Below are positions 686 to 54,899 of a DNA stretch of 56,924 nucleotides, piece after piece. The translations under genes were made by a program, and so were the position numbers. The stretch's first letter is position 1. Each line of letters starts with the position of its first letter. The notes beneath the pieces were generated by a model. The model made no database searches. It was given only the letters and a program-made list of their open reading frames with translations, and was not told where the DNA came from. Source of the stretch: a virus; the IMG/VR virus record IMGVR_UViG_3300032895_000004, positions 1 through 56,924 of that record; one strand, given 5' to 3'.

Positions 686-949
686 GTGACTCTGCGTTGT
701 GAATGTGGGAAGCGGCTGGCGATGCTCCAGGTAAAGGACGGCGGTTACGGTTCAGCCGGTCCCGGAGGCGCATTCGTAGATGGCTTCTGGTATGTCCCGA
801 CACGGCGGGGACAGCCCGTCGTAGCTGACTACTGGCACCAACACACCTCCCGGTGTGGACGCGCTCCCGAGATCCGAGGGGAGCGGCTCGTGGAACTCGT
901 GCGGTCGGCACAAGCGCGGGGCGTCAAGTCGATCACCCTGCCGGATTAG
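686..949 (+). CDS. Zinc-ribbon-like protein spanning the repeat boundary
   Basis: From GTG 686 the product is 87 residues: an N-terminal LRCECGKRL pair of cysteines, a Gly-rich middle, then ADYWHQHTSRCGRAPEIRG and a helix (RLVELVRSAQARGV). The paired Cys/His suggests one bound zinc. The ORF runs smoothly across base 811/812, where the repeat begins, which supports the left join as a genuine gene arrangement. An in-frame ATG at 611 is possible but the added residues look non-coding. In the right copy only the C-terminal part survives (53415-53552). Confidence 0.6.
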   Translation: MTLRCECGKRLAMLQVKDGGYGSAGPGGAFVDGFWYVPTRRGQPVVADYWHQHTSRCGRAPEIRGERLVELVRSAQARGVKSITLPD

Positions 950-1044
950 CCGGGCATCAGCACCCGACCGAACGAGTCTGCCAAGTCTCGGTCGCACCAG
1001 ACGACAGGTTGGCCCAAGCCCGAATAGGGGGCCGGACAGCCGGT

Positions 1045-1485
1045 CTAGGCGGCCGCGGCGATCAAAAGTTCCGCAGAGGTTGTCTCTGAGGTGTGACGCC
1101 GGAGGAGATGCTCGCGAGTGTGGGTGGCGAAGCGGTACGTGCACCCCTTCTCCATGCCACCATCCTCGATAAGCCGAGCCAACAACACTCCAACGGTCTC
1201 GTCGGCGCTCAGAACAGCCGGTCCGTGACTCCCGTGATCGCAGTCGCCGGGCACCCGCGACAACGAAACGATCATGAGGGCGTTGGACACAGGAACCACC
1301 AAGTTCGCCACGCCCCCCGACGCTTCGACCTCGGCCAGTGCGTCAGCGATCCGGTCCGAGCGGAGTGCCGGAACCACCGGAATCGACCCGTCGGGCGCGC
1401 GCTTCAGGAGGTCCGTGAACTCCGGCTCGATCATCTTCCGGGCGATCAGCGCGGTAAGACCGCCGCGTTCGCCGTCCTCAGGCAT
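1045..1485 (-). CDS. Hypothetical 146-residue protein (left copy)
   Basis: Start taken at MPEDGERGG (1485), which overlaps the 3' end of the upstream gene by 8 bases; a longer frame to 1752 is antisense noise. The protein has an N-terminal helix (LTALIARKMIEPEFTDLL), an alternating hydrophobic core (SGGVANLVVPVSNALMIVSL) and an Ala-rich end. No family recognised. An identical copy lies at 53648-54088. It converges on the rightward zinc-ribbon gene ending at 949. Confidence 0.65.
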   Translation of the reverse strand: MPEDGERGGLTALIARKMIEPEFTDLLKRAPDGSIPVVPALRSDRIADALAEVEASGGVANLVVPVSNALMIVSLSRVPGDCDHGSHGPAVLSADETVGVLLARLIEDGGMEKGCTYRFATHTREHLLRRHTSETTSAELLIAAAA

Positions 1486-1849
1486 CCTGCCACCTTGTGA
1501 GCTCCGCCGAGAGCTGTGTCTCGGCCAGTGCTTCTGCTGTGCGTGTATATACATCCTCGAGCGATCCGGGAGCAATCGGCCCGACCTGCCTGGGTATACC
1601 CGGGTCTGCGGTACGGCAATGCTCCCTGCGCCAGAGGCTGCCCTCCTCCGACCACATCTCAACGACCTCCCGATAGATAGGACTGCCGGACATCGTCTTG
1701 AGTGCGATGTGAAAGTACACCAATTCTCCCTGTTCACGGGCCATGTGGACATCCAGCCGATGTGCCTCCATCCCCAAGGTGCCCACTTTGAGCCGGAACG
1801 GGTGCAGCTCCGGGCCCTCCCACCCCGGAAGACTCATGGTGTCGCACAC
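1478..1849 (-). CDS. Hypothetical 123-residue protein (left copy)
   Basis: Begins MCDTMSLPGWEG (1849); the internal ATG at 1837 is an equally good start. The sequence is mixed alpha/beta with a central HMAREQGELVYFHIALKTM strand region and an acidic helical C-terminus. It overlaps the next gene by 8 bases, so the two are probably translationally coupled. No family recognised. Identical copy at 54081-54452. Confidence 0.65.
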   Translation of the reverse strand: MCDTMSLPGWEGPELHPFRLKVGTLGMEAHRLDVHMAREQGELVYFHIALKTMSGSPIYREVVEMWSEEGSLWRREHCRTADPGIPRQVGPIAPGSLEDVYTRTAEALAETQLSAELTRWQDA

Positions 1850-1873
1850 TAGTTGACCAGGGAAAACGGCGGC

Positions 1874-2065
1874 CTAATTCGGACATAGAGCCTTCCCGCC
1901 CGGATCACCGTCTGGAAGCCGCGGAGGCTTGGGCAGCCCAGCCAACGTCCTCCCCAGCGAGGCGGCCAGTTCCTGATCGCGCTGCTCGAGGGCGTGCGGG
2001 TACACCCGAAGGGTGATCGACGGGTCGGCATGGCCGAGCCGAGCCCCAACCGTGACGGCTCGCGC
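1874..2065 (-). pseudogene. C-terminal remnant of a tyrosine recombinase (integrase)
   Basis: The frame ending in TAG at 1874 reads VGARLGHADPSITLRVYPHA then LEQRDQELAASLG. This is the C-terminal active-site signature of phage tyrosine integrases: the LGH box with its His, and the Tyr nucleophile in VYPHAL about 10 residues later. Only about 60 residues remain; upstream in the same frame comes the TGA stop of an unrelated zinc-ribbon gene (2066-2068), so the catalytic Arg regions are absent. It cannot be an active integrase. It suggests descent from a temperate phage. An overlapping 66-residue frame is a shadow. Second copy at 54477-54668. Confidence 0.75.
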
Positions 2066-2294
2066 TCATGCCATCTGGCCTTCGTCTTCGAGAGGCAGTA
2101 GCTCGTCCCTCAACCTGAATGTGCCGTGACCGCACCACCGACAGGTAGATCCGAACCCGAAGTCGTCGGAGTGGAACTGCATGGCACTCTTGCGCTGGCA
2201 CTCGGGGCAACGGCGAGACTCGGCTGATCGCCTTGCAGCCGTCCGGCTGTTGGCGGTAGCGGTGCGGACGTTCCCGTTCTGAAAAGGTAGCCAT
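2066..2294 (-). pseudogene. Zinc-ribbon protein gene with apparent single-base frameshift
   Basis: The coding frame reads RRCPECQRKSAMQF, then CRWCGHGTFRLRDELLP and ends EGQMA, a typical two-CxxC zinc ribbon (CPEC and CRWC). This frame has no start codon before a TAG at about 2297. An ATG at 2294 (MATF) lies one frame off; removing one T from the TTTT run just after it joins MATF to QNGNVRTATANSRTAARRS and restores one continuous protein. Either a homopolymer indel error or real decay. The same state is in the second copy (54669-54897). Confidence 0.65.
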
Positions 2295-2296
2295 AT

Positions 2297-2854
2297 CTAT
2301 AAGAGTCCCTGAGCGTCCGGACCGTGACAGTCGTCGGGAGATTTCTCGGGAAACTTCTGTGGATTTAGTGCGGCCCGAAGATTGGCTAGCACCTTAGTCC
2401 ACGTCGGACCCCCGTCGCGGGTGTCAGCCCAGTCCACTACGGCTTGACCAACTTTCCGCAGCCGGTCCCGCTCGGCTTGGAGGCCGCTGGCACGGTGCCA
2501 CTGCTCGTTCGCGCTGGTCCTAGCCTCAGTCAACATCTGCTGAAGCGTGACCCTCTCGGATTCGGAGTGAGCGAGATCACCCTTTGTCTGTCGCCACCCC
2601 AACTCGGCCTGGTTCCGCTCGGCCACCAGGGCGTTGAAGGAGCGGTTGAACAACCGAGCGACCATGAGAGCCGTGGCCTGTGTCTCGGCACAGATGACGC
2701 AGTGATCTCCGGCCCAGTTGTTGTCGCAAGAGTGGTCCGAGGCGAGCGACTTCACGAGGTCCTGCTCCTCGCGGATGGCCTGTTCGAGAGCAGCGGTGCG
2801 GACCGCCTCCTCGACCCGTTGCGTAAATGTGGACGATGAAACCGGATCAGGCAT
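2297..2854 (-). CDS. Helical protein with Cys/His cluster (left copy)
   Basis: Start taken at MPDPVSSST (2854), overlapping the methyltransferase stop by 8 bases; a longer frame to 3016 is out-of-frame noise. The 185-residue product has long charged helices (EEAVRTAALEQAIREEQDL; NRSFNALVAERNQAELGWRQ; a Q/E-rich coiled-coil-like middle) and a CDNNWAGDHCVICAE cluster that could bind zinc. Possibly a DNA-associated structural protein; no family recognised. Second copy at 54900-55457. Confidence 0.7.
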   Translation of the reverse strand: MPDPVSSSTFTQRVEEAVRTAALEQAIREEQDLVKSLASDHSCDNNWAGDHCVICAETQATALMVARLFNRSFNALVAERNQAELGWRQTKGDLAHSESERVTLQQMLTEARTSANEQWHRASGLQAERDRLRKVGQAVVDWADTRDGGPTWTKVLANLRAALNPQKFPEKSPDDCHGPDAQGLL

Positions 2855-4130
2855 GGGCCACCTCCGGGTACTCGATCTCGACGAGCCACATGCCGACGCG
2901 CTGCCGGCCGAGCTCGGCGTTGCGCTCGTCCAGGTCGATCCCGATGGCGTCGCGGCCGTGGCCAGTGGCGACGGCGAGAGTGGTCCCTGAACCGGCGAAG
3001 GGGTCAAGCACGACACCGTTACGCCAGGAGTCGTGGCCGCAGTCCGACCATCCGAGGGTCAGGCGCTCTGAGAAATCAGGAGCGTCCGTCGATGAGCCAG
3101 CCCTTGCATGGCGCTGGGGATCTCCGAGCGTTCGGTGCCCGTTGCCAGTGCTGTTGACGTGCTCCACCAGACGCCGGCTGGGTTCGCCACAGACCGTGCA
3201 GACCCGGCGCGGGCACATCGCCTCGATGGGCGTCACGCACAGGTCGGACGGGAAGGCGGCGTAGTGGCTGCCTTTGTAGGGCTCAGTGGGGATCACCCAG
3301 TAGTCGAGGGGTGGCGCTCCGGCTGGATGCGACGGCACTCGGGTCTGGTAGTTCGCCGTCTGGACCTCGACCGGGTCGCCGTGCTTGGGCCCGTTGGTCG
3401 TGCGGAACCGCTGGTCGACTGCCTCGGTGCGGACCGCGTCCATATCGAAATACCGCGTGCGGCTCTTGCAAGCGATCGTCAGATAACTCGTGGCCGGTCG
3501 GAACTTGTCGCTGAGCGCGCCGACAGGAGGGTTCGGGCGGCACCAGGCGACCACGTTGCGGACCCGCCAGCGGTCGGTCTGCCGTCCTGTGAGCGCGTTG
3601 AACCCGTAAGACAGAGCGACGGCGAACAGTTCGGGGACGAGCACCTTGGACTTGTCGAGTGGCCAGCCGTCCCTGTCGGACCGCGTGCGTCCGGGTCCGG
3701 TGCGCTCGCCCGCGCCGGGTTGGTTATACGCCGTGTTCATAGGCTTCGCTCGAGCCGCCCGGGCTTTTGTTGCGCTCCCGTCAAACGTCGGCTGACCGGC
3801 ACGCATCGCCCAGGTCCCGTTGCTCGGGTCGGCCGGGGTGTAGTCCCCACCAGCACCACCGGAACCGCTGTAGGTGTCCCCGAGCTCGACCACGATGGAG
3901 CCGTGCGGAGCCAGCACCCGCTCGAGCGCCTCGATCACGTCAAGCAGGGTGTCGAGATACTCGCCGGGCGTCGGCTCTGACCCGATCTCCTTGGCCTTAT
4001 CCGGGTGGTCCTTGGGCAGGTAGGAGCGCAGAGCCAGGAAGGGCGGTGAGGTCATCACCAGGTCGACCGAGGCGTCTGGCAGCTTCGCCAGTGCATCGAA
4101 CACGTCGCCCACGATGTAGCGGGCGGTCAC
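2847..4130 (-). CDS. DNA methyltransferase, beta-class amino-methylase (N4-cytosine / N6-adenine)
   Basis: 427 residues from GTG 4130. The catalytic motif IV, TSPPF (residues 27-31), precedes the S-adenosyl-methionine-binding motif DPFAGSGTT (residues about 376-384), the order that defines the beta class. Between them lie a target-recognition region and a CPRRVCTVCGEP cysteine cluster with a later CGH, probably a structural zinc site. TSPP[YF] fits transfer to an exocyclic amino group; the recognition sequence cannot be read. No restriction partner is adjacent, so it is likely an orphan methylase protecting or marking phage DNA. Second copy at 55450-56733. Confidence 0.9.
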   Translation of the reverse strand: MTARYIVGDVFDALAKLPDASVDLVMTSPPFLALRSYLPKDHPDKAKEIGSEPTPGEYLDTLLDVIEALERVLAPHGSIVVELGDTYSGSGGAGGDYTPADPSNGTWAMRAGQPTFDGSATKARAARAKPMNTAYNQPGAGERTGPGRTRSDRDGWPLDKSKVLVPELFAVALSYGFNALTGRQTDRWRVRNVVAWCRPNPPVGALSDKFRPATSYLTIACKSRTRYFDMDAVRTEAVDQRFRTTNGPKHGDPVEVQTANYQTRVPSHPAGAPPLDYWVIPTEPYKGSHYAAFPSDLCVTPIEAMCPRRVCTVCGEPSRRLVEHVNSTGNGHRTLGDPQRHARAGSSTDAPDFSERLTLGWSDCGHDSWRNGVVLDPFAGSGTTLAVATGHGRDAIGIDLDERNAELGRQRVGMWLVEIEYPEVAHA

Positions 4131-4270
4131 GACGGGCCCTTAGCGGGAGAGTCCATACCCCGGCTGGACACTGGCGCCGAACCTGGGCGAGCGTCCTCGC
4201 GGATAGCCCCCTCTCCCGCAGGAGATTCTACCTGGTCAGGGGCGGTTATCGGTCGCGGTAAGGCGCGCAC
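4127..4270 (-). CDS. Possible 47-residue leader ORF before the methyltransferase
   Basis: An open frame ends in TGA overlapping the methyltransferase GTG (GTGA) and can start at GTG 4270, with GGGAGG four bases upstream inside the preceding gene. The product would be Pro/Ser/Ala-rich with no recognisable fold. Within it lies an inverted repeat (GCGGGAGAG at 4143-4151 and CTCTCCCGC at 4211-4219), so this stretch may be a structured leader and not a gene. Confidence 0.3.
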   Translation of the reverse strand: MRALPRPITAPDQVESPAGEGAIREDARPGSAPVSSRGMDSPAKGPS

Positions 4271-4389
4271 GCCGCCTCCCACTGATCGTCGGTCACGCTG
4301 TCGGGCTCGGCGAGCTCGGCGTCGAGAACAGCCCACAGGCGACGTTCGGCCTCGTCCCGCGGTCTACTGGAAGTGAAAGAAACCGTCAT
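4246..4389 (-). CDS. Small 47-residue protein
   Basis: MTVSFTSSRPRDEAERRLWA then an acidic helix (LDAELAEPDSVTDDQWEAA) and a YRDR end, stop TAA at 4246. The start ATG overlaps the stop of the upstream gene by 4 bases (ATGA, 4386-4389). Codon use matches its neighbours. Function unknown. The right repeat copy contains only the part up to base 56924. Confidence 0.6.
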   Translation of the reverse strand: MTVSFTSSRPRDEAERRLWAVLDAELAEPDSVTDDQWEAACAPYRDR

Positions 4390-9010: not shown

Positions 9011-10042
9011 TTACGAAGCCACGACTTCGCGGGCCAACGTCAGAGCACGAGCCTTCGCCGCCTGCGGACGAAGCAACTGACGACCCATGTAGGTCTGCGT
9101 GTTCCGGTAACCCCGAAGGTGATCCAGGTACTCGCCAGCCGCCTGCACGAGCCCGTACGCATTGTCTTTGATCGGCTCGACGGTCGGTGTGCCGAACAGA
9201 CCGAACATCGCCGTGCGAGCCAGCTCGACGTTGCGCACCACGCGTTCACTCACGACGCCTTCAGGCGGCATCGGGATGAACTCATTGACGAACATCTGCC
9301 GATGCTTGGCGGTGACTCTGATCTTGGTCAGTTCGTTACAGATTTCCAACCACCGCGCTGTCTCGTCGCGCACGCCGTGAATCGCCTGCTTGGCCTCCTC
9401 GATCCGATCACGCCAGTTTTTGGTGTGCGCGAACGAATACGCCACGCCCTCTCTCTCCCCGAGAGCTTCGGAGGCTCCGTAGGTGTTGGCACACACCACT
9501 CGAACGTTGGTCGGCAACACCTTGCACCGACCGTGTCCGTCGTGACGATTGAGCACCACGAAGTAGGGATAACTCTGCGACGTGTCACCGCGCACCAGGA
9601 ACGGCTCGTCCAGATAGGCGCACACATAGGTCATGCGACCCTCGTCCAGACACCCGGCTGTATCCCACTGAGCCTTTTGATCGAGCAACGCCTCCACGAT
9701 CCCGCCCATCTCGGAGTTGTCGATCAGCGAATAGGACTCATTGGTGACGGCCAGCGTGACGTTCGTGTCCGATCGAACGATCCGCTTCCACCCCTCGATT
9801 TCCTGAATCTCGGCCGTCGTACGTTGCCGTCTGTCGGCGTCGTCGCCTTTGCCAGATCGAACGGTCTGAACTCTGATCGTCCGATCGTCCACGGCATAGA
9901 CGGGCTTCTCGATCGGGTCCCACGCCAGACCGGCCAACTCGCGCGCCTCGTCCCAACTGCCGGGGTAGTCGGGCACAAGCGTTTCGAGTTGGTGCCAGCT
10001 CGGTGTGCGAACACAAAAGCCGGACTCAAATAGATGACTCAT
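9011..10042 (-). CDS. DUF932-family protein
   Basis: 343 residues from ATG 10042, preceded by AAAGGAGAACA. The N-terminus MSHLFESGFCVRTPSWHQLE, then SWDEARELAGLAWDP and a long alpha/beta body with VTNESYSLIDNSEMGGIVE and PYFVVLNRHDGHGRCKVLP, match phage/plasmid proteins of the DUF932 family (related to YfjQ/YubP of plasmids). Family function is not established; it is usual near replication or plasmid-maintenance genes. Here it is separated from both neighbours by non-coding DNA, suggesting its own control. Confidence 0.75.
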   Translation of the reverse strand: MSHLFESGFCVRTPSWHQLETLVPDYPGSWDEARELAGLAWDPIEKPVYAVDDRTIRVQTVRSGKGDDADRRQRTTAEIQEIEGWKRIVRSDTNVTLAVTNESYSLIDNSEMGGIVEALLDQKAQWDTAGCLDEGRMTYVCAYLDEPFLVRGDTSQSYPYFVVLNRHDGHGRCKVLPTNVRVVCANTYGASEALGEREGVAYSFAHTKNWRDRIEEAKQAIHGVRDETARWLEICNELTKIRVTAKHRQMFVNEFIPMPPEGVVSERVVRNVELARTAMFGLFGTPTVEPIKDNAYGLVQAAGEYLDHLRGYRNTQTYMGRQLLRPQAAKARALTLAREVVAS

Positions 10043-10074
10043 TGTTCTCCTTTGTCGGATGGGGCGATCTGCCC

Positions 10075-10145
10075 CGCACTCTCCTGACACCCACGCTGGA
10101 CGCTGCGCAGCCCCGTCAGCCATAGCGAGATGTCAGGAGAGTGCG
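10075..10145. repeat. 15-base perfect inverted repeat upstream of the DUF932 gene
   Basis: CGCACTCTCCTGACA (10075-10089) and its exact reverse complement TGTCAGGAGAGTGCG (10131-10145) flank a 41-base spacer. The pair lies between the gene ending at 10162 and the DUF932 start at 10042. It may be an attenuator hairpin in the DUF932 leader, a terminator stem with a long loop, or two operator half-sites. Confidence 0.75.
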
Positions 10146-11828: not shown

Positions 11829-12206
11829 GTGATCCCGGCGATCAGTGTTCGCCAGCCCTGGGCCGGTCTGATCGTCTCGGGCGTCAAGGACGTCGAGAAC
11901 CGGACGTGGCGTACCTCTCATCGCGGCCGTGTGCTCGTCCACGCCTCCGCACGCCCCGATGTAGTCGCGCAGGGCTCTCACGGCTCAGACGGCATTCTGG
12001 GGGCCAACGGAGCCATTCTGGGGGCGGTCACGCTGGTCGACTGTCTGTTCGATCAGAGCGTCAGTCGTTGGGCCGAGCCAGGGCTATGGCACTGGCTCCT
12101 GATCGACCCCGAGTTGTTCGCGGAGCCGATCCCGGCGTCGGGTCGTCTCGGTATCTGGCACCCGTCGAGAACGACGTGTCGCCAGTTACGCCGCGTCTTG
12201 CAGTAG
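11829..12206 (+). CDS. ASCH-domain protein
   Basis: 125 residues from GTG 11829. ISVRQPWAGLIVSGVKDVEN, TWRTSHRGRVLVHAS, GAILGAVTLVDCLF and WHWLLIDPELFAEPIPASGR follow the order of the ASCH fold, a PUA-related beta-barrel that binds RNA or modified nucleotides. Phage ASCH proteins are usually single-domain like this one; the ligand is unknown. It is one of three rightward genes outside the left flank and its end overlaps the convergent ABC-ATPase gene by 21 bases. Confidence 0.85.
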   Translation: MIPAISVRQPWAGLIVSGVKDVENRTWRTSHRGRVLVHASARPDVVAQGSHGSDGILGANGAILGAVTLVDCLFDQSVSRWAEPGLWHWLLIDPELFAEPIPASGRLGIWHPSRTTCRQLRRVLQ

Positions 12207-13334
12207 TCGTCTCGCCTCAGCGAGAGCCATCGTCTCGCCGGCCCACGCGAACGTCGCCGAGGGTCGAGCTCCCTGTTTCCACCACCCGCCCAGCGTTGTG
12301 TTGCGATTGGTCGGTCTGGCGACGCGACCGCTCGAGGTCGGCAAGCCAGGGCGATGCACCAAGGCCCACTCCGGAGACCGATCGAACGCCCGAATGAATG
12401 AGGGGTGCGCAGGATGAATGTGCATCCGGTAACCGACCGCCTTATAGCTAGCTGCCACACGGTTCATCAACACGAACACCAGACCGAGACCTTGCCAGTC
12501 CGGCAACGTGACGACGCGAGAGAACACCTTTATGTCACGGCTGCGAGCGTGCGGCTGGTGTAGAACGCCGCAGAAGGCGGCGGGCTCGTCGTTCGCGAAC
12601 AACACGAAGCACCGCGCGCCGCGGTTCAGCTCCTTGGTCAGATAGTGAAACGGAGCGAACAGGCTCCAGGCGGAATAGGGCACACGGCCGACCGTGACCT
12701 CGATGGGCGGTCGGGGTTGAAGATGCCTCCACTCGAACGACATGGTGGCCGGCTCCAACACCCAATCCGGTTGTAACCAGTCGATGATGTCGAAGTGACA
12801 CGACGCCGCCACGAAGCGCCGATCGTTGCGCCGGACCCACTTCTGCACGGCGTGCGCGCCGATCTTGGCAACCTGGCGATCGACAACGGACGTGAACTCG
12901 TCCACGGTGATGATCTGATCGCTCGGTGTTTCGAGCAGACGGCGCGCCAATTCGACGCGGAACTTCTCCCCCGTCGAAAGCACACCGTAGGGTCGCATCC
13001 AGGCGGGGATCGTGTTGAACCCGACCGCCTGACAGATGCCCGAAATCTCCTCCATGCTCAGATGCTTGGCGAAGTCGTCCAGGACGTTGGGTTCCTTCCA
13101 CCGCAGAGGCTTGTCGAACACGCCGCCACCGAACGCGTCCTTGAGAATCGTGCTCTTTCCCGCGCCAGACGGGCCCACGATGAGACCGACGTTCCAGTCG
13201 CGCTCCTCGATCGGCAGTTCGCCGTCCCACGATCGTTCGGTCGTCTCTGCTCGCGGGACGTCGAACATCGTCTCCAGTTGACGGGCGCGCACCGAACGAG
13301 AAACGGGCGACGAAACTTCCACGTGAACTCTCAC
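12186..13334 (-). CDS. ABC-type ATPase fused to a GNAT-like acetyltransferase domain
   Basis: 382 residues. Walker A is GPSGAGKS (residues 54-61); the ABC signature is LSTGEKFRVELARR (119-132); Walker B with catalytic Glu is IITVDEF (141-147); the switch His is in AASCHFD (about 180). The C-terminal half has a GNAT-type acetyl-CoA loop, TLPDWQGLGLVFVLMNRVA (about 276-294). This is the architecture of COG2401. No membrane segments, so it is not a transporter. Its GTG overlaps the stop of the broken gene upstream (GTGA), which in turn abuts a ParB-like gene; the three look like one cassette of unknown role. Confidence 0.85.
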   Translation of the reverse strand: MRVHVEVSSPVSRSVRARQLETMFDVPRAETTERSWDGELPIEERDWNVGLIVGPSGAGKSTILKDAFGGGVFDKPLRWKEPNVLDDFAKHLSMEEISGICQAVGFNTIPAWMRPYGVLSTGEKFRVELARRLLETPSDQIITVDEFTSVVDRQVAKIGAHAVQKWVRRNDRRFVAASCHFDIIDWLQPDWVLEPATMSFEWRHLQPRPPIEVTVGRVPYSAWSLFAPFHYLTKELNRGARCFVLFANDEPAAFCGVLHQPHARSRDIKVFSRVVTLPDWQGLGLVFVLMNRVAASYKAVGYRMHIHPAHPSFIRAFDRSPEWALVHRPGLPTSSGRVARPTNRNTTLGGWWKQGARPSATFAWAGETMALAEARRLLQDAA

Positions 13335-13717
13335 GCTGTCGCCGCCTCCAACTGCGGCAAGGCGGACCCGGCGTACAGCTCGAACAAGGTTCGCCCGTCG
13401 TCAGCAAGCATGTAGGGCAACATGACTTCCTCGACGCTGACCATCTCGGTCCGAATGATCGCCGCCTGAGCCGACCCAGTCCTTCAACACACACCACGCC
13501 ACTCTCGTGGCCTGATCCATGTCGGGCGTTCGTCGGCCCGGCTGTCGACCGGCACGTTGCAGCACGGCGTACACGTTGAGCGGGTGCACGGGCAATCGAA
13601 AGCGCCGCGGCCCGGTCACGGTGGGACAGACGAAGGACACACCGAAAGGGACGCCGCCCGTGTAGAGCGTGGTGACCTCCTCGGCTCCGTCGTGTAGTTG
13701 AGCAAGGGGCTGGCCAT
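13331..13717 (-). pseudogene. Broken middle gene of the ParB / ABC-GNAT cassette
   Basis: Three pieces in different frames can be joined. MASPLLNYTTE starts at ATG 13717 (TGATG overlap with the ParB-like stop). The next piece reads VTTLYTGGVPFGVSFVCPTV, then RRFRLPVHPLNVYAVL and ARVAWCVLKDW-type residues. After a one-base shift near 13,471-13,480 (GGG in GACTGGGTCGGC) the third reads AQAAIIRTEMVSVEEVMLPY then MLADDGRTLFELYAGSALP to TGA at 13331. I recall phage proteins of about 150 residues that begin NYTT, have KDWLEAQ and end EVMLPY; compared with these about 20-25 residues are missing after NYTTE. Real decay or assembly error. Confidence 0.65.
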
Positions 13718-14334
13718 CAGACGATGAGACCCGACACGTCGAGTCCTTCGGCCTCGAACCGCGCCAGCAACTCGGCCTGATGCGCCTCGTCGGTGCACAA
13801 GATCACCACTCGATACTCCAACAGATCACCGAGTTGGGAAGACGTGTCCAGATTCTTGACGGGCGGGCTCACTTTCGTTGCCAACGCCAACACTCCCGCC
13901 GAGTCGAACCCGGAGCCGAGCAGACGAGGACCGATCTTCTGTTCGTGACGTTGGAGAATCGTGAGCAGCTCCCCGTTATCCCAGCCGCCGAGAATCGTGT
14001 GCTGATTGTCGGCGACCACGTACGCCTCGGCCTCGTCGTCGTCTCGCGTCTCCACGCCGCGAATGACGGGCACCTGCCAATCGACAACGCCCATCGGCGG
14101 ATCGCCGCCCTGTTCGCGCATCGCTGCCAGTGCAGCCACCCGACCGTGACCCGTGAGCATCCGTCCGGTTCGTTCGTCAATGATCGGCGGACTGGTGAAC
14201 CCGAATCGTCGCATGGAGTCGATCAGTTCGGGAATGTCGTGCCGTTTCGGGTTGCGAACGGCGGGCATCTTCGCCACCTCATCGAGCGGCCGACGTTCGA
14301 TCCAGTGACTCTCTCGTTCGATCGTCTCAGCCAT
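13717..14334 (-). CDS. ParB-like nuclease-domain protein
   Basis: 205 residues. PKRHDIPELIDSMRRFGFTS, PPIIDERTGRMLTGHGRVAA and DDDEAEAYVVADNQHT are the ParB/Srx-type N-terminal domain, with the GHGR box and the ADNQ motif. There is no following HTH and no ParA partner, so partitioning is unlikely. Single-domain ParB-like proteins in phages sit beside modification or DNA-handling enzymes, and some are nucleases or CTP-binding switches. It heads the cassette with the broken gene and the ABC-GNAT protein. Confidence 0.85.
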   Translation of the reverse strand: MAETIERESHWIERRPLDEVAKMPAVRNPKRHDIPELIDSMRRFGFTSPPIIDERTGRMLTGHGRVAALAAMREQGGDPPMGVVDWQVPVIRGVETRDDDEAEAYVVADNQHTILGGWDNGELLTILQRHEQKIGPRLLGSGFDSAGVLALATKVSPPVKNLDTSSQLGDLLEYRVVILCTDEAHQAELLARFEAEGLDVSGLIV

Positions 14335-14554
14335 CGCCGACCGCCTCTCGGACCACCTTCGGGTTCACGCCGTAACTCAAGGCGATGGCTCGAACACTCG
14401 CACCGGCATCGCGCAATCGCGAGAAGGCACGAGCTCGCCGCGCGTACGCCTTGGCGAGCTGCGCCTTGCACTTCTCGACGTCGGCGATCGCCTCATCCGC
14501 CTCACGCCAGTCGCCGGGCGGCGCATCGCCGAGTTGCGGGACGGGAGCGGCCAT
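14327..14554 (-). CDS. Small helix-turn-helix protein
   Basis: 75 residues: an N-terminal coiled segment (EADEAIADVEKCKAQLAKAY), a basic stretch (ARRARAFSRLRD) and a C-terminal HTH (ASVRAIALSYGVNPKVVREA). Its stop overlaps the ParB-like start by 8 bases. The HTH suggests DNA binding, perhaps autoregulation of the cassette. Confidence 0.65.
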   Translation of the reverse strand: MAAPVPQLGDAPPGDWREADEAIADVEKCKAQLAKAYARRARAFSRLRDAGASVRAIALSYGVNPKVVREAVGDG

Positions 14555-26407: not shown

Positions 26408-28900
26408 CTACGGGCTATTGACTTGGCGCAACGAGACCGTCGTGTCCTGAATGGGGTGCTGGCCGGTCTCATATTGGAACTCGACCTCGGGCGAACCGAT
26501 CACGGTCACATACCATTGACCACCGAGCGGTGACTGCAAAAGAAGTGCCCCGGTCTGAGTGAGCAAAGCTTCGAGGGCGTTCTGGTCGGTCAGGTTGCCA
26601 GTACGGAACACCAGCCCCCAATCCACGCCCTTGAAACCATCGGTCAGCTTCACGCCCAGCGGGCGACCTTGCGGATCGAACTCGGTGTCGACCTGGCGCA
26701 GGGTCTTGCTCGGGTTACCGTTCAGATCGAGCGCCACGCCACTGCCTTGCACGAGTGGGTTCGACAGGCCCCACTTCGGATAGACCGTCGACTGCGTCGA
26801 CACGGTATTGCTCCACGGCGAGTACACGGTCGTGCCCTGATAAGGCGCGACGACTCGGACTCGATAGACCATCGTGGTGAGAGGAACGGACTCGGTGTCA
26901 TAGCAGGATGCGGTCTGCGCAGCGGACTCCAGCACCAGCGCGCCGAACCGAAGGTCGTTCCACGTGGCGCCGCCGTCCTGGGAGACCTGGAATTCCATCG
27001 ACGCCACACCGACGTTGCCACCCAGGGTCCACTCCGTCGCCACGCCGGGGAACAGGCCCCACTGGTCGGCGAAATGTTCCTCGTTGGCCGCGCACCCGCT
27101 GATCGTCACGACGAGCGCCGCATACGCTGCGCCCGAAGGCGCGGTGGCCTGTCCTGAGAGCACGGTGTTGGCACTTGCCGAGTCGTTAGCGGTGTCGATC
27201 GTGGTGGTCGACAGCAGAGTGCCCGCTGAGTTGTACCAGGAGACCCCCAGAGTGGCGCTACGAGCCACGGAGGCGGCGCGCAGCACGACCCATACGGTCA
27301 GCTCCTCCCCGCCGCTTACAGGGCATCCTGAGAGGCCGCCCGACCACTGCGCGCTGATGGCCCCGCTGGCGGTGGCCTTCAGTTGCAAGGAGTACGAGCC
27401 GTCCGAGGCCCAGGTGGTCACCGCCGAAATGGCCGTGTTGGAGCCCGCACTGAAGCCAGTGGTGGTGCCGAGCTCGACCGACGACTGGTTGGCCGTGCCG
27501 AGGTTGTCCGCTCCGGTCGCGGTGAGCAACACGGCGGGCAACTGGGTGCCGGGGTAGTCCACGACGGAGCCCACCAGGCTCGGCTGAGCGGGCGAGTCGT
27601 AGTTGACCGAGAACGACGAATACTCCCAGGGGGAGGTCTCGCCATTGGATTGCGTGACTTGAACGTATGCACGGAAGCTGGTCGCGTTTGCCAACGCGAG
27701 CCCGACCATCGCGCTGGCCGCGGAACCGGCCTCGACCCCGGAGTCCCACGTCGATGGCGAGACGCCCGGGGTGAACCCACCGGCCCCGTACTGCGCGGCG
27801 CTGTAGATCACCACTCGCCACGCGGTGAGCGACTGACCGGAGGCGGGAGAGGGGGACCACACCACCGTCGGTTCAGGAGTGATCACCGACCCGCTCGGCG
27901 ACGTGACACTGAGAGTCGGTCCGAGGCTCGTGGTGAACTGACTGAAGGCGGCGAACGGGCCGTCGTCACCGGCCGAGGACTCTTGGGTCGCCAGTGCCCA
28001 CGAGATGGTGTGACCGTTCGCGAAGAGGTTGGCGGGGAGAGCGACGGTAAAGGTGGCGCCGGGCGCAGCGGCCAACGTGTTCCACACCGCCCCGCTCTGC
28101 AACGCTTGCGTGGTGGCGTTGAAGTACTGAACGGCACCCGAGTCGACTTTGACCTGAAGCGCGTACGCATGCATCGACGCCCCGTTGGTGGGGTTGTAGC
28201 TCGCTTCGAGGTCGATGATCTGCGTGGCATCTGCCGCCGAGCCCGACGTCGGTGAGGTCTGCGTGGGCGCCAGAGGCGCGATTGGGACCTCGTAGAGTGC
28301 GACGGTGATCTGTCCCTCGCCGCCCGCCGTCCCGGAGCCGGCCCACTGAATGTTCCCCGTCGAGCCCTCTGACGCCACGACGAGGTCGGCGACGTAGGTG
28401 CTGCAATAGGTCACATAGTTGACGGCGACGCGCTCGGTCCAACCCCCGGAGGGGACACCCGTAACCGGAGTGCCCCCGCCGCCGTAGGCCCCAATCAAGA
28501 TCGAGACCACCGTGTCGTTCGTATAGCTAGTGGTCACCGCTGGCGTGACGATTCCACTACTGATGCCGCCGACGTTCGCCGCGTCGATGGCGATGCCCCC
28601 GCCGGTCGCGCGATAGCCAAAGGCGTTGAGCACGTAGGAGGCGACGCCCGCTTCGCCGAAGCCGAACGTCAGTTCACCGGCCGAGAGATCAGCAGTGGTC
28701 AGAATCTTGCAAAGGCACGCCTGATCAGTCGCACCGATCGCCAACACGGTCCACCCCGAAGGCACCGAAAGGATGGAGCCGTTGGTGGCACAGGTGAGGA
28801 ACACCAGGTCGCCTTGTTGAGAGCCCGAAGGAATCTCGATCGACCCGCTGGCGCCCTCGCCTTCGACCGGCGTTTGCGCGGCGGTAAAGGCCAAGCTCAT
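26408..28900 (-). CDS. Large minor tail protein with Ig/Fn3-like repeats
   Basis: 830 residues. An N-terminal jelly-roll-like domain (GSQQGDLVFLTCATNGSILS; SAGELTFGFGEAGVASYVLN) is followed by at least two Fn3/Ig-like units (PLAPTQTSPTSGSAADATQI; WRVVIYSAAQYG; AFRAYVQVTQSNG-type strands) and a C-terminal domain (VYPKWGLSNPLVQG; LEALLTQTGALLLQSPLGGQ; WYVTVIGSPEVEFQYETGQH) resembling distal-tail proteins. Ser/Thr/Gly-rich, as expected for an exposed tail-tip protein. Overlaps the tape measure stop by 4 bases. Confidence 0.75.
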   Translation of the reverse strand: MSLAFTAAQTPVEGEGASGSIEIPSGSQQGDLVFLTCATNGSILSVPSGWTVLAIGATDQACLCKILTTADLSAGELTFGFGEAGVASYVLNAFGYRATGGGIAIDAANVGGISSGIVTPAVTTSYTNDTVVSILIGAYGGGGTPVTGVPSGGWTERVAVNYVTYCSTYVADLVVASEGSTGNIQWAGSGTAGGEGQITVALYEVPIAPLAPTQTSPTSGSAADATQIIDLEASYNPTNGASMHAYALQVKVDSGAVQYFNATTQALQSGAVWNTLAAAPGATFTVALPANLFANGHTISWALATQESSAGDDGPFAAFSQFTTSLGPTLSVTSPSGSVITPEPTVVWSPSPASGQSLTAWRVVIYSAAQYGAGGFTPGVSPSTWDSGVEAGSAASAMVGLALANATSFRAYVQVTQSNGETSPWEYSSFSVNYDSPAQPSLVGSVVDYPGTQLPAVLLTATGADNLGTANQSSVELGTTTGFSAGSNTAISAVTTWASDGSYSLQLKATASGAISAQWSGGLSGCPVSGGEELTVWVVLRAASVARSATLGVSWYNSAGTLLSTTTIDTANDSASANTVLSGQATAPSGAAYAALVVTISGCAANEEHFADQWGLFPGVATEWTLGGNVGVASMEFQVSQDGGATWNDLRFGALVLESAAQTASCYDTESVPLTTMVYRVRVVAPYQGTTVYSPWSNTVSTQSTVYPKWGLSNPLVQGSGVALDLNGNPSKTLRQVDTEFDPQGRPLGVKLTDGFKGVDWGLVFRTGNLTDQNALEALLTQTGALLLQSPLGGQWYVTVIGSPEVEFQYETGQHPIQDTTVSLRQVNSP

Positions 28901-31752
28901 CCCGACACCCCACCACGGATGGGCGACTGTCCCGTCTTGATCTGTTGGGTCAGCGCGGTGAGCCCTTGCTTCGCCGCCATCGACGCCTGACTGGCCGTCG
29001 CGCTGTCACCGACCTGGATCACCACGGCACCCGGCGCGACGGTGACCACCGAGGACTGCACGGTGGTAGTGCTCGACGCACCGAGCGACCCGATCCCGGC
29101 CAGTCCTCCCGGCCCTGGGCCGGTCTGCGTAGTCGGCATCGAGAGCCCGGCCGAGGTCAAAATTTCCACGATGCGCGCTCGGTTGTTCAGAGGCAGCACA
29201 ACCTCGGGCCCTGCTTCACCAACAAGCGCCAGAGTCGGCTTCGTGATCAGGCCGCCCTCGGCCAGGAGGCCGAAGGTGACGGTCGACAGCACGGACTTGC
29301 CCGCGTTCAGAATCCCGCCGATCGCCCCCGCCACTTTGGAGGCCACCGACTCGATGTCATCGAGCGCATCCTTGATCGCGTCAAAAATGGTTTTGACCCC
29401 GTCCCACGCGGTGGAGAGCACGGTCTTGATCCCGGACCAGACGTAACTCCACACGGTGCCCAGCGTGGACAGGGCGCCTTTTATCCCGTCGGTGATCCCG
29501 CTGCTGATGTCGTGGAACACGCCCGAGACAGCTCCCCACACGGTGCTGAGAACCGAAGACGCCCCGTTCCACACCGCGCTCCACACCGCCTTGAACCCGT
29601 TGACCACGGCGGTCAGAGTCCCGGTGATGAAGCCGGTGACGTCATCGAACACGGACTTGATCCCGTCCCACGCGGTCGAGATGACCGAGTGCAGAGCGTT
29701 GCCGAAAGCGGTCCAGTTCCCGGTGACCAGCGCGATGAACGCGTCGATGATCCCCTTGATCACGCCGATCACGGTGGCGACGATGGTGGAGATCAGGTCC
29801 CAGGCCGTCTTGAACACGCCGGTGATGACGTTCCACGCGGTCGTGAAGATGGCCTCGACCACTCCCCATGCTTCGGTCACGTTGTCGACCACGACGGCGA
29901 CCCCGTCCTTCACCACCCCACCGATCACGGACCACACGGCCTGGAAGGCCGCGTCGAGAACAGCCCATATCTGCTGCCAGTGCAGCGCGAACTCGATCAC
30001 CGCCGCCAGCACGATCCCGATGGGACCGAGGAAGGCCAGGAGCACGATGCCGAGCGTGCCGAACCCCGAGCGAAGATCGTTGACCGCGTCATCGAACCAG
30101 TGCTTTATGTCGGACCACACCTGTTGCCAGTGAGTCGCCAGGTAGTCGATCCCGGCCGCGAGCGCGGCGACCGCCAGAATGATGCCGCCGATGATCGGGA
30201 CCACCACGGACATGCTGGCGATCCAGAACCCGATGGCCGTGACCAGGATGCCGCCGATCACGGCTGCCAACGCGATCAGCAGCTCCTTGTGCTGCATGAC
30301 GTAGTTCCCCGCCTTCACCAGCCAGTCGAGGAAGGTCCGGATGGCGGGCAGCAGAACGCTGCCCAGCTTCGTCGCGTAGTCCTCGACGGTGGCCTTCAGC
30401 ATGTCGAACTGATGATCGAGAGTCTGCGCCTGCTTCTCGGCCGCCTCGTGCGCCGCGTTGGTCTTGTTGACCGAATCGATGTACTTCTGCAACACGGCCG
30501 GGCCGGCCTGGATGGTCTCGGCCAGTTTCTGCGATGCGGAACCGAACCCCAGAGTCTTGAGCGTCGCCGCCGCCTCGGCCGTCCCCATCCCGGCGAGGAC
30601 GGGTTGCAGCTCCGCGAAGATCGTGGTGAGGGGGAGCAGTTGGCCCTTCGCATTGAGGAAGGACACGTTCGCCGCCTGCTGCGCCGCGGTCACCGCAGCG
30701 GTCGGAGCGATGATCCCCGAGAAGGCGGACCCCAGCGCCGAGATGGCCCCACGGCCGGTCTCGCCGTGATTGGTGATGTCGACCAGCAAGCCGGCCAGCG
30801 CCGACAACGGTGGCGCTGCTGCGCCCATCTGCGTGCGGGCCCGCTGCAACGAGGAGGTCACCTGATCGAGCCCGACCCCGGTCTGACGTGACGCCTCGAA
30901 CAAGATGTCGCTGGTCGTGGCGGCGGCCGACAGCGGAAGCTGGTACGCCTGCATGATCTTCGCCAGATCGGACGTCGCGTTGGCGAGTGAGACCTGGGAC
31001 GCCTCGGCCAGATCGGAGGCCGTTTTCATAATCAGCGTCGAGTTCGCCGCGTCGAGTTGGTGACCCGCGATCTCCTCGAACACGGCGGCCACCGGGGACA
31101 GGGCCTCAATCATCGTGTTCCCACTGAAGATTGAGGTCCCCGCGGTGTCGAGGAGCGCGTTACCGATCCCTTGTGCCTTGGCGATGGAGATATCGGCGTT
31201 GGCCGACAGCGACGTGGTCGCGGTCTGGAAGTCCATGCCCAGCTTGATCGAGGCGGCCGCGAAGCCGAGGACCGCGACGGTGGTCCCGATCGCGATGACC
31301 TTGCCCAGCGCGCCCATCTTCCCGGCGAACCCATCGGTGGCCGTGCCGGCCGTGCCCATCTTCCCGGTGATGTTGTCGAGGGTGGAGTTCCCGGTGGAGT
31401 TGAGATTGACCAGGCCGCCGGTCAGGAATGAGAGCGCGGAGCCGAGGGAGTCCATGAGCCCCCCGCCCCCCTTCTCGGCGCTCTTGGCGATGTCGTCGCC
31501 GACGTTCTTTCCCGCGGTGTCCAGATCACCCAGCGCGAGAGCTCCGGCCCCAGCCGCGTCGGAGATGTCGCTCGCAATCCCGTCGGCTCCGTCCTTCACC
31601 CCGGCGCGCATTCCAGCGCCCGCCGCTGCCCCACTGGCAGTTGCGTCGGCCTCGAGCCCGGTGAAGGCCTCGGCGGTCTGACCCTGCAAGTCCTCCTCGA
31701 ACTGCGAGCCGTCAGCGGTGACGAGGATCGAGGCCTCGCCGATGACGTTCAC
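28897..31752 (-). CDS. Tape measure protein
   Basis: 951 residues, the longest gene, just downstream of the tail assembly chaperones. The N-terminal region (LGMDFQTATTSLSANADISI; MAALKT-like LNATSDLAKIMQAYQLPLSA) is a TP901-type core; RTFLDWLVKAGNYVMQHKEL precedes three hydrophobic segments (LLIALAAVIGGILVTAIGFW; VVVPIIGGIILAVAALAAGI; IVLLAFLGPIGIVLAAVIEF). A long run of Trp-spaced repeats (WNVITGVFKTAWDLIS; VWSAVWNGASSVLSTVW) forms the rod. It sets tail length; at about 1.5 angstrom per residue the tail would be roughly 140 nm. Confidence 0.9.
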   Translation of the reverse strand: MNVIGEASILVTADGSQFEEDLQGQTAEAFTGLEADATASGAAAGAGMRAGVKDGADGIASDISDAAGAGALALGDLDTAGKNVGDDIAKSAEKGGGGLMDSLGSALSFLTGGLVNLNSTGNSTLDNITGKMGTAGTATDGFAGKMGALGKVIAIGTTVAVLGFAAASIKLGMDFQTATTSLSANADISIAKAQGIGNALLDTAGTSIFSGNTMIEALSPVAAVFEEIAGHQLDAANSTLIMKTASDLAEASQVSLANATSDLAKIMQAYQLPLSAAATTSDILFEASRQTGVGLDQVTSSLQRARTQMGAAAPPLSALAGLLVDITNHGETGRGAISALGSAFSGIIAPTAAVTAAQQAANVSFLNAKGQLLPLTTIFAELQPVLAGMGTAEAAATLKTLGFGSASQKLAETIQAGPAVLQKYIDSVNKTNAAHEAAEKQAQTLDHQFDMLKATVEDYATKLGSVLLPAIRTFLDWLVKAGNYVMQHKELLIALAAVIGGILVTAIGFWIASMSVVVPIIGGIILAVAALAAGIDYLATHWQQVWSDIKHWFDDAVNDLRSGFGTLGIVLLAFLGPIGIVLAAVIEFALHWQQIWAVLDAAFQAVWSVIGGVVKDGVAVVVDNVTEAWGVVEAIFTTAWNVITGVFKTAWDLISTIVATVIGVIKGIIDAFIALVTGNWTAFGNALHSVISTAWDGIKSVFDDVTGFITGTLTAVVNGFKAVWSAVWNGASSVLSTVWGAVSGVFHDISSGITDGIKGALSTLGTVWSYVWSGIKTVLSTAWDGVKTIFDAIKDALDDIESVASKVAGAIGGILNAGKSVLSTVTFGLLAEGGLITKPTLALVGEAGPEVVLPLNNRARIVEILTSAGLSMPTTQTGPGPGGLAGIGSLGASSTTTVQSSVVTVAPGAVVIQVGDSATASQASMAAKQGLTALTQQIKTGQSPIRGGVSG

Positions 31753-37180: not shown

Positions 37181-38926
37181 TTACCCAGTCGGGGCGATGG
37201 TCCCCGAGGAAGCACCGTTCGGGATCACCGCTGCGTAGACGAGCAGAGATTCGATCCCACGAAACGCGACCGTCTCGAACACTTCAACGAAGGTCTCGTA
37301 GTCGTTGGTGCTGTCGAGCGAGCTGTCCCGCACCACGCCCAGGTCGAGCGTGCCGCCGTCGAGCCGCTGGAAGTTCCCTTCGGGGAAGAGGGAGAAGGCC
37401 AGGTGCGTCGGCCACGCGTCCACCGCGCCGGTGGCTTGCGCCCCGAAGGCCTGCGACACGATGGTCACCGTCTTGCCCGACGCCCCGTAGGTGCCCGCCG
37501 GCCGGCCGTCGATCATCCAGATCGGGTTGACCCCACGGTTCTGGAGCCACTGGTTGATCAGCGCATCGGTCACGCCTCGAGGGTCGAAGCCCGCCGAGTC
37601 GTGGGCAATCTCCTGCGCCACGTCGGAGCGGATCATGTCCTTCAGCCACTCGGGAGCGACGAAGGAGAGCATGATCGAGCGCGGGATGCGGTGACGCTGC
37701 CGATAGGCCGAGCAGATCAGGTCGAGGTCGGTGAGCAGATCACGCGACACGCCCAGGGTCTCGCCGATGGTGACGCCCGTCGAGTTGGCGTCCAGTTTCG
37801 ACAGGGCGTTCAGCTCACGCACCTGCGCGGCGTAGGCCATCGCCAGCGTGGTCTGCGCGGCGACCCACTCCGGGTCGAAGCGACCTTGCATGTTGCCGAT
37901 CTGGATGCGGGTCGGCACCGCGTCGACGTACACAGTCACCGGGTCCGGGCACACGATGGCGGCGATGGCCTTGGTGTCGTCACCCGGGTCGGCGTCGGTC
38001 GCCTCGGTCCACACGGCGGTGGAACCCGACAACGTGCCGAAGTCGGGCGGGGGCACGAACATGAGCGCCCCTCGATCGGCCTGGCTTGAAGGCAGCGCGT
38101 CGATCAGCGGCGTGTCGTCCGTCGCCCAGGTGGGCACCGAGTAGTCGACGGCGGGCGGGCCACAGATGCCACCGGAGGCCACCAGCGCTCGGCTGTCGAA
38201 CCGCTCCCGAATCTTGCGCTCGTTGCCCACGACGTCGCCAGCCCGAAGGCGGGCGTACTCGGGGTATTCGGACTCGGCGTGCGCGACGTACACGACACCG
38301 CGCGGTGCGCCACGTCGGGGGAGGCGGCGCAACAGGTGCGCCATCTCGTCGCCCAGCTCGGCGGCGGACTCGAACACGTGCCCGTTGGGGAACCGGCCAC
38401 CGGCCCCGGTGGAGTACACCTTCGTGTCCCCTTGCGGAGCGCCACCGTTGGGAGACGGCTTGGCCGGGGTGCCCATGTTGCGCTGCGCCATGCGGGTCAC
38501 TCGCGACCCCTCAGCACCAGCGGCAGCGGCCGTGGGCTGAGTCTGGCCGTCGCCCTCTCCTTCAGCAGGAGCCGGCGTCTTGGCCTTGGCAGGGTCATCA
38601 TCGTATGCACCCTCGGCCTGGTCGCCCTCGCCGCCTTCGCCATCGCCCTCGCCGCCTTCGCCCTTCAGGACGTGCATACGCTGGCGCAGCTCCTCCGCGG
38701 TCTTGTCGGCTTCGGCCTGAGCCTGCGCACGACCATCCCGCTCGGCCTTCACCTTCTCGGCGTTCTCGACCACGGCCCCCATCGCGGCCACGACCTCGGG
38801 ACTCTTGGTCTCGGTCGCGTCCAGCTCGGACCATTGCTCATCGAGGCGCGCTGAAACCTGATCCAGCTCCTCGGGAGTCGCAGCACTGAGGTCTGCGAGC
38901 AGTTCTGCAAGTCGTTCGTCGTCCAT
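37181..38926 (-). CDS. Major capsid protein with N-terminal scaffold-like region
   Basis: 581 residues. Residues 1-85 are helical and acidic (RLAELLADLSAATPEELDQV; SARLDEQWSELDATETKSPE), 86-150 are Gly/Glu low complexity, and an HK97-type capsid domain follows (ADRGALMFVPPPDFGTLSGS; PVTVYVDAVPTRIQIGNMQG; AQTTLAMAYAAQVRELNALS; IPRSIMLSFVAPEWLKDMIR; WPTHLAFSLFPEGNFQRLDG). The N-terminal part is probably the delta/scaffold segment removed by the protease encoded at 41954-44122. GAGGAG precedes the ATG. Confidence 0.85.
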   Translation of the reverse strand: MDDERLAELLADLSAATPEELDQVSARLDEQWSELDATETKSPEVVAAMGAVVENAEKVKAERDGRAQAQAEADKTAEELRQRMHVLKGEGGEGDGEGGEGDQAEGAYDDDPAKAKTPAPAEGEGDGQTQPTAAAAGAEGSRVTRMAQRNMGTPAKPSPNGGAPQGDTKVYSTGAGGRFPNGHVFESAAELGDEMAHLLRRLPRRGAPRGVVYVAHAESEYPEYARLRAGDVVGNERKIRERFDSRALVASGGICGPPAVDYSVPTWATDDTPLIDALPSSQADRGALMFVPPPDFGTLSGSTAVWTEATDADPGDDTKAIAAIVCPDPVTVYVDAVPTRIQIGNMQGRFDPEWVAAQTTLAMAYAAQVRELNALSKLDANSTGVTIGETLGVSRDLLTDLDLICSAYRQRHRIPRSIMLSFVAPEWLKDMIRSDVAQEIAHDSAGFDPRGVTDALINQWLQNRGVNPIWMIDGRPAGTYGASGKTVTIVSQAFGAQATGAVDAWPTHLAFSLFPEGNFQRLDGGTLDLGVVRDSSLDSTNDYETFVEVFETVAFRGIESLLVYAAVIPNGASSGTIAPTG

Positions 38927-44122: not shown

Positions 44123-44418
44123 GAGTCCTCCTCGTCCGGGGCGTCGGTCCCCTCGGTGAACAGCACGGTGAAGTCGCAGGTGCAGCCGTCATGGTCGCCG
44201 GGTGCGAAGTACTCCACCTCGGGCCAGCCGTAGGTGTTCTGAAGCTGCTCGTCGTCCCACTCTGTGAACTGCACGCCGTCGAGGTCAGCGTGGGGCTCGA
44301 AGGCGTGAAGTGGATCGCCATGCACCCATTGGTACGAGACCACGTCAGCGTTCGCGTCGGACAGAAGGTCGGACACGATGGGCCCGGTGCCGATCTGACC
44401 CAACAGGTCGTCAGCCAT
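44119..44418 (-). CDS. MuF C-terminal-like minor head protein
   Basis: 99 residues from ATG 44418 (MADDLLGQIGTGPIVSDLLS). QWVHGDPLHAFEPHADLDGV, VEYFAPGDHDGCTCDFTVLF and an acidic end. The PGDHDGCTCDF block is the usual end of MuF-type minor head domains. It seems to be split off from a MuF protein whose N-terminal part is fused to, or replaced by, the portal C-terminal extension. Confidence 0.6.
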   Translation of the reverse strand: MADDLLGQIGTGPIVSDLLSDANADVVSYQWVHGDPLHAFEPHADLDGVQFTEWDDEQLQNTYGWPEVEYFAPGDHDGCTCDFTVLFTEGTDAPDEEDS

Positions 44419-46783: not shown

Positions 46784-47049
46784 CAGGTGTGCTCGGTCAG
46801 GAACCCAGCGACGGCCGACAACGCCAGCACGTAGCACCCCCACCGCACGATGCTCCACTCGAAGTGTGTCAGGGCGAGCAGGACGACGCCGAGCCACACA
46901 GAGCAACACCAGGGGCACTCAGCCCAATCACGCAGCTTGCCCCCGAGACGCTGGCGGATGGGCTCAGTGAGCAGGTCCCGACCGATGAACCACGCCAGGC
47001 GATAGATGCACAGCGCCACGATCAAGGCGTTGAGCGCCGTCCACCTCAC
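46783..47049 (-). CDS. DUF1360-like membrane protein
   Basis: 88 residues: LNALIVALCIYRLAWFIGRD, LTEPIRQRLGGKLRDWAECP, WCCSVWLGVVLLALTHF and GCYVLALSAVAGFLTEHT. The RLAWFI-RD-L-EPIR...ECPWCCSVW pattern is the DUF1360 hallmark: three membrane helices and a CxxC-type knuckle. DUF1360 proteins occur in phages and bacilli; role unknown. It sits between terminase and portal genes. Confidence 0.75.
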   Translation of the reverse strand: MRWTALNALIVALCIYRLAWFIGRDLLTEPIRQRLGGKLRDWAECPWCCSVWLGVVLLALTHFEWSIVRWGCYVLALSAVAGFLTEHT

Positions 47050-53414: not shown

Positions 53415-53552
53415 CAGCCCGTCGTAGCTGACTACTGGCACCAACACACCTCCCGGTGTGGACGCGCTCCCGAGATCCGAGGGGAGCGGCTCGTGGAACT
53501 CGTGCGGTCGGCACAAGCGCGGGGCGTCAAGTCGATCACCCTGCCGGATTAG
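53415..53552 (+). pseudogene. 3' fragment of the rightward zinc-ribbon gene (right copy)
   Basis: Identical to the last 138 bases of the gene at 686-949, coding PVVADYWHQHTSRCGRAPEI and the rest to TAG. The N-terminal CxC half is missing because of the switch at 53414/53415. An ORF to the left continues into antisense of another gene and is chimeric. Confidence 0.65.
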
Positions 53553-53647
53553 CCGGGCATCAGCACCCGACCGAACGAGTCTGCCAAGTCTCGGTCGCAC
53601 CAGACGACAGGTTGGCCCAAGCCCGAATAGGGGGCCGGACAGCCGGT

Positions 53648-54452: not shown

Positions 54453-54476
54453 TAGTTGACCAGGGAAAACGGCGGC

Positions 54477-54897: not shown

Positions 54898-54899
54898 AT

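Follow-up and report, generated by a model that had tools for sequence, protein, structure and literature searches.

Gene Content of the Locus

The DNA analyzed here (the window) is the complete 56,924-nucleotide IMG/VR virus record IMGVR_UViG_3300032895_000004, a phage contig that, outside the HTH/ParB/ABC-GNAT/ASCH region, is an ordinary tailed-phage genome (Table 1). The genes that the first-pass annotation had named in this region, encoding a ParB-like protein, an ABC ATPase fused to a GNAT domain (ABC-GNAT), an HTH protein and a convergent ASCH protein, are all present judging by their coordinates and profile matches, and the matches of the window ABC-GNAT, ParB-like and ASCH proteins are far beyond chance. 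The stop/start overlaps that it had reported are real as well: the HTH and ParB-like genes overlap by 8 bases, the ParB-like stop meets an ATG at 13717, and the GTG of ABC-GNAT at 13334 overlaps a TGA whose last base is 13331. On the opposite strand, the ASCH gene overlaps the 3' end of the ABC-GNAT gene. No homolog of the HTH protein was found in related ABC-GNAT loci at 1e-3. Near the module, positions 9011-10123 encode a predicted DUF932/TIGR03299 phage-plasmid protein (7e-68).

Table 1. Positions of the features discussed, in window coordinates.
Feature	Position	Strand	Evidence
ABC ATPase fused to GNAT acyltransferase, 382 aa, GTG start	12186..13334	-	phrog_11143, PF00005, PF00583
ABC ATPase domain, residues 1-204	12723..13334	-	Foldseek and hmmsearch: ABC nucleotide-binding domains
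GNAT domain, residues 205-382, HY(L) and QGxG motifs	12189..12722	-	alignment, model, Foldseek
ParB/Srx-superfamily adaptor (putative), 205 aa	13717..14334	-	phrog_620, 6.5e-23
ParB C-terminal 35-aa tail	13720..13824	-	tail HMM, 55 bits
Frame-broken remnant of LLNYTT-family gene, between ParB and ABC-GNAT	13331..13717	-	
Small HTH protein, 75 aa, overlaps ParB start	14327..14554	-	weak HTH matches only
ASCH-domain protein, convergent with ABC-GNAT	11829..12206	+	PF04266, 2e-6; phrog_3193, 9e-37
N6/N4 DNA methyltransferase	2847-4130		
Tape measure	28897-31752		
Major head protein	37181-38926		
Portal	44411-46918		
Terminase	47902-49620		

An identical 3510-base direct repeat lies at 812-4321 and 53415-56924, the right copy forming the contig end, and the 811 bases that precede the left copy have no match elsewhere in the window. 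The genome is probably circular and ~52.6 kb long, the left end of the contig being an assembly artifact.

The open stretch between the ParB-like and ABC-GNAT genes had been counted as a third conserved protein, which is not borne out. Judged against gp75 of Microbacterium phage Nicole72, no single frame encodes the whole protein: the N-terminus (MASPLLNYTTE), the middle (TTLYTGGVPFG...KDWV) and the C-terminus (QAAIIRTEM...LEAATA) occur in alternating frames, with the start and end in one frame and the middle in a second, and ~20 residues are absent after the start. The gene was not found between ParB and ABC-GNAT in ~170 related loci, where the filler of any gap within the pair looks unlike it, and it has no match in Pfam, PHROG, or NCBIfam. 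We treat it as a presumed lineage-specific insertion, broken either in nature or in assembly; an assembly error is possible because the contig ends, with their 3510-base repeat and 811 extra bases, are odd. A three-gene cassette was rejected since the third gene is broken and lineage-specific, so that of the joint cassette proposed in the first-pass annotation the two-gene ParB/ABC-GNAT unit stands and the three-gene version falls.

A Conserved Two-Gene Unit

In total, 94 viral and 80 bacterial loci were gathered, 91 and 78 of which, respectively, are uncut. A ParB-like gene lies directly upstream of ABC-GNAT in 79/91 uncut viral and 70/78 uncut bacterial loci, and in about half of the viral loci the ParB end and the ABC-GNAT start share the same ~22-base overlap. 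The conserved unit is therefore two genes, ParB-like plus ABC-GNAT, and the neighborhood of ABC-GNAT is not random, random neighborhoods being what the first-pass annotation had expected to count against a joint role. The bacterial loci are largely prophage-like, with terminase, portal and head genes downstream. TerL, belonging to three sequence clusters, is found within 3 kb downstream in 76 of the 120 loci whose sequence extends far enough. In this window the module and TerL are far apart; in Arthrobacter phage EastWest the module lies at replication genes, and in Porphyromonas phages it sits at the record end. An ASCH gene is located within 0.9 kb downstream of ABC-GNAT in 21 of 141 loci, and 19 of these are convergent as in the window. 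The unit is not universal, as ABC-GNAT occurs without a detectable tail (see below) or ParB in pT24, P12024S, PX29, vB_VmeM-32, and Enterococcus phage 9184.

A few loci carry additional metabolic genes. A Formyl_trans_N protein is encoded directly downstream of ABC-GNAT in four loci of unrelated backgrounds, and aspartate decarboxylase (PanD) in four loci, namely Gordonia phage Jace, a Gemmataceae assembly (two loci) and a Thermoanaerobaculia assembly. These companions, present in a small minority of loci, would be compatible with an aminoacyl-type modification for which they cap the product or supply the precursor.

The ABC-GNAT Protein

The window ABC-GNAT matches phrog_11143 at 5e-94 over nearly its whole length, along with PF00005 (7e-6) and PF00583 (7e-5). 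In an alignment of 37 diverse homologs, the Walker A motif (GxSGxGK), the signature (LSxG(E/Q)), Walker B (DE, carrying the catalytic Glu) and the switch His are invariant, and the acyl-CoA loop (QGxG) and the D-loop are invariant or nearly so. The AlphaFold2 model of ABC-GNAT is of high confidence (pLDDT 89.7; 88.1 for the GNAT domain model) and contains no long coiled coil. Foldseek matches of the GNAT domain are GNAT acetyltransferases, a generic fold, and its closest matches among solved structures are acetyltransferases acting on small molecules or proteins, the protein N-acetyltransferase RimI included; the full-length search returned only ABC domains among the best 50 matches.

With its motifs intact, the window protein belongs to the ABC-GNAT family (phrog_11143) whose members are predicted DNA acyl-modification enzymes. 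Both the family and the DNA-acylation idea are already known as a prediction, stated in PMC7824862 (citing Iyer 2013). The first-pass annotation had called the function of the cassette not established, which is correct experimentally as far as we found, with no experimental follow-up of the ABC-GNAT prediction in the literature searched, but overlooks that the DNA-acylation hypothesis is in print (PMC7824862). A protein of Tenacibaculum phage pT24 is homologous to that of the window (34% identity, 91% cover, 1e-53), with the same combination of ABC and GNAT domains and the same proposed role. However, the pT24 annotation shows two genes and no detectable tail, whereas the window encodes one fused protein with a tailed ParB partner.

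Any relation to Mom of phage Mu (PF25680, phrog_1384) would be distant. Both are phage-borne members of the GNAT superfamily and occupy the same slot beside ParB in Arthrobacter phages, but ABC-GNAT carries an ABC ATPase and an acyl-CoA loop of the classic QGxG form, the comparable position in Mu Mom reading RNSES. The Mom profile (PF25680) had no match in the window protein at E<=1, and the 25 families with most matches across the 37 ABC-GNAT members did not include Mom. Alignment of the GNAT domain to Mom with hhalign was weak (P 0.002, probability 13%), although in register at the HY motif and at one conserved Arg. Among viral predicted-structure matches to the GNAT domain, LP65 orf128, which is related to Mom, ranked 13th. 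Membership in Mom was rejected because of the missing Pfam match. Two further assignments were considered. An ABC transporter is not favored, as no permease was recognized among the listed neighbor clusters and all are phage genes, and membership in a known defense system was rejected because PADLOC gave only weak mad3/mad8 and partial MTase_II matches reflecting generic similarity.

The ParB-Like Protein and Its Tail

The ParB family profile matches Spo0J/ParB structures at 1e-10, and by this comparison the ParB N-terminal fold is present in the family; PF02195 matches 11 of 25 ParB-like members, and the window protein itself has no match. The GxRR CTP-binding motif is not conserved: the window has GHGR, its Arg is found in 14/25 members, and a second conserved Arg neither precedes nor follows that position among the 25. 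Chromosome partition (ParABS) is thus not supported.

The ParB-like proteins end in a tail of ~35 residues with the consensus YxVIVECxDExxQxELLERLExEGLKC. Tail and GNAT were searched separately in one set of 298 genomes, all from the bacterial class to which the planctomycete Botrimarina (L173) belongs; of these, 104 contain both, two the tail only, four the GNAT only and 188 neither, although the relatedness of these genomes inflates any p-value on this co-occurrence. The GNAT lies within 2.5 kb of the tail in 104/110 tail matches. Such one-to-one adjacency is hard to explain without a physical partnership. In this planctomycete set (loci L129-L208), ~36% of the 298 genomes carry usually one ParB-tail/ABC-GNAT pair, beside terminase and portal in many sampled loci, with internal stops in some copies; the pairs would belong to widespread prophages or gene-transfer-agent-like remnants.

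In four loci, a mini-ORF carrying the tail lies in front of ABC-GNAT and no ParB domain was detected. These are Porphyromonas phage 011a, Pseudomonas phage Komp_PAO1_1, an IMG/VR locus (L085) and Rhizobium subbaraonis (L204), with weak scores for the solo tails of 011a and R. subbaraonis. Two of the four mini-proteins, at L008:3822-3950 and L014:3801-3950, have 42 and 49 aa. The Porphyromonas solo tail is annotated as an "acr candidate", a label that is probably wrong. Rhizobium phage RHEph10 encodes an ABC homolog that lacks this GNAT and two ParB-like proteins that both lack the tail. Since tails occur solo and the RHEph10 ParBs are tail-less, the tail tracks the GNAT rather than the ParB domain, and we infer that it docks on the ABC-GNAT protein. 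A Tad2-like (PF11195) gene adjoins the RHEph10 locus (L209:3881-4824), and tblastn matches with an ABC-only extent like that of RHEph10 occur in ~150 plasmid records, mostly from Acinetobacter.

Exchange of ABC-GNAT with Other Enzymes

The DNA of Arthrobacter phage EastWest is 75% identical to that of Arthrobacter phage Wyborn as far as mid-ParB, and 68% identical once the HTH and sliding-clamp genes are reached. In the interval flanked by these stretches, EastWest encodes ABC-GNAT and the tail that goes with it; in Wyborn, the ParB tail is of a zinc-finger-like type and the enzyme is Mom (PF25680 at 7e-59). What the slot contains varies and is not limited to DNA modifiers, because Beans and Abba, also Arthrobacter phages, keep the zinc-type ParB tail without Mom and have, in the same slot, an uncharacterized 125-aa protein (Beans) or no modification enzyme (Abba). 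For the same reason, the zinc-tail was rejected as a Mom-specific adaptor.

A second swap is found upstream of the terminase. The gene order in Gordonia phage Axumite is ParB, ABC-GNAT, formyltransferase, TerL, and in Microbacterium phage Cinna (gp1-4) it is ParB, Tet_JBP oxygenase, P-loop nucleotide kinase, TerL; the two TerL are homologous (E 2e-40). In Cinna, a ParB-like gene is followed by a DNA-base enzyme in the slot that ABC-GNAT occupies in Axumite, with the oxygenase and kinase in its stead. The 35-aa tail is found on the EastWest and Axumite ParB but not on those of Cinna, Wyborn, and Microbacterium phage Antuna, in which ParB is paired with Mom. These exchanges with Mom and TET/JBP enzymes are an association and not a demonstration of function.

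ParB-like genes recur in phage hypermodification loci, as PMC11955845 and PMC12783734 show. In Rhodococcus phage Tonitrus, a ParB-like gene lies beside the TET/JBP modifier in a thymine hypermodification locus (PMC11955845). CmoX/CmoY carboxymethylcytosine systems likewise combine phage base hypermodification with ParBc neighbors, whose role is noted as unexplained in PMC12783734; they differ from ABC-GNAT in relying on SAM-derived carboxymethylation followed by ligation, and the text consulted mentions neither GNAT nor ABC proteins.

Proposed Function and Alternatives

The first-pass annotation had guessed at DNA modification for these genes, and for ParB and ABC-GNAT together this guess is well supported by the near one-to-one co-occurrence, the dedicated tail and the slot swaps with Mom and TET/JBP enzymes. 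The reading that we favor, at a probability of about 0.6, is a DNA-modifying enzyme that transfers acyl or aminoacyl groups, is driven by ATP and has its own adaptor. In its favor are the invariant motifs, the ParB gene directly upstream, the tail pairing, the Mom and TET/JBP swaps, the companion genes, the frequent TerL downstream, and the prediction in the literature. Against it stand the weak relation to Mom, the RimI-like folds, a slot that is not modifier-only, the copies lacking tail or ParB, and the rarity of the companions. In the proposed mechanism, the ParB-like and ABC-GNAT proteins would form one complex that covalently modifies the phage's own DNA bases, most likely by acyl or aminoacyl transfer to an exocyclic amine, and the modification would serve as a shield against host nucleases. 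The ParB-like domain would bind phage DNA while its 35-residue tail holds the ABC-GNAT protein; the ABC domains may dimerize on ATP, with the hydrolysis cycle loading or opening DNA for the GNAT domain, which would use acyl-CoA as its acyl donor. In those phages that have one of these genes adjoining, formyltransferase may cap the added amine, and aspartate decarboxylase may supply beta-alanine.

A more specific version is possible, although we hold it only tentatively and would sooner bet against it: a distinct hypermodification machine in which an ATP-dependent ABC-GNAT and a ~40-residue tail subunit, usually fused to ParB, install aminoacyl groups (beta-alanyl or glycyl), some of them N-formylated, with ParB-like proteins acting as interchangeable adaptors of phage base-modification enzymes.

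The same genes might instead serve packaging or genome organization, with ParB loading an SMC-like ABC ATPase beside the terminase and the GNAT regulating terminase, capsid or the ATPase itself. TerS/TerL do lie downstream in most loci, in three TerL clusters, the combination of ABC and ParB resembles ParB-SMC loading, and the closest GNAT folds include protein acetyltransferases. However, ABC-GNAT has only 382 aa and is modeled without a long coiled coil, the module takes other positions in this window, in EastWest and in Porphyromonas phages, as noted above, some copies are without any ParB domain, and the partners found in the slot elsewhere are base modifiers rather than packaging proteins, all of which makes this role unlikely.

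Proximity to RimI-type folds, together with the known phage Rac-type GNATs that acetylate RNA polymerase (PMC7824862), could also point to acetylation of a host protein during takeover (RNA polymerase, a defense protein or a ribosomal protein), targeted by ParB and ABC. This is countered by the strict association with a ParB-like partner that binds DNA, and with its tail, and by the swaps with DNA-base modifiers; we regard it as quite improbable. Least probable of all, with only a slight chance of being correct, is an acyltransferase for small molecules or nucleotides, with dNTPs or free nucleotides as substrates, or else a superinfection or defense effector: ParB/Srx folds can bind or hydrolyze nucleotides (PMC5512222) and the ABC part is weakly similar to PADLOC mad3, but that similarity is only generic for ABC proteins, and the listed neighbor clusters show no recurrent restriction or toxin partner.

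Descriptions of the tail subunit, of its solo form or of the slot swaps did not turn up in the literature searched, Iyer et al. 2013 aside. With a dedicated tail that also occurs solo, and with the Mom/TET/JBP swaps, the family prediction becomes directly testable; tail and swaps together may explain why ParB-like genes recur beside phage DNA-modification enzymes, a puzzle raised in PMC12783734.

Annotation of Family Members in Public Records

Cultured phages with ABC-GNAT members include Gordonia phages Axumite and Jace, Arthrobacter phage EastWest, Lactococcus phage P335 and Leptospira phage LE4. Public annotations of the family are misleading, with products such as "ABC iron siderophore transporter", "ATP binding protein", and "DNA polymerase". 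In the split genes at L005:3929-4983 and L012:3932-5373 the ABC half is labeled an ABC transporter, in Streptococcus phages it is labeled an iron siderophore transporter, and the split GNAT half of Enterococcus phage 9184 is the one labeled "DNA polymerase".
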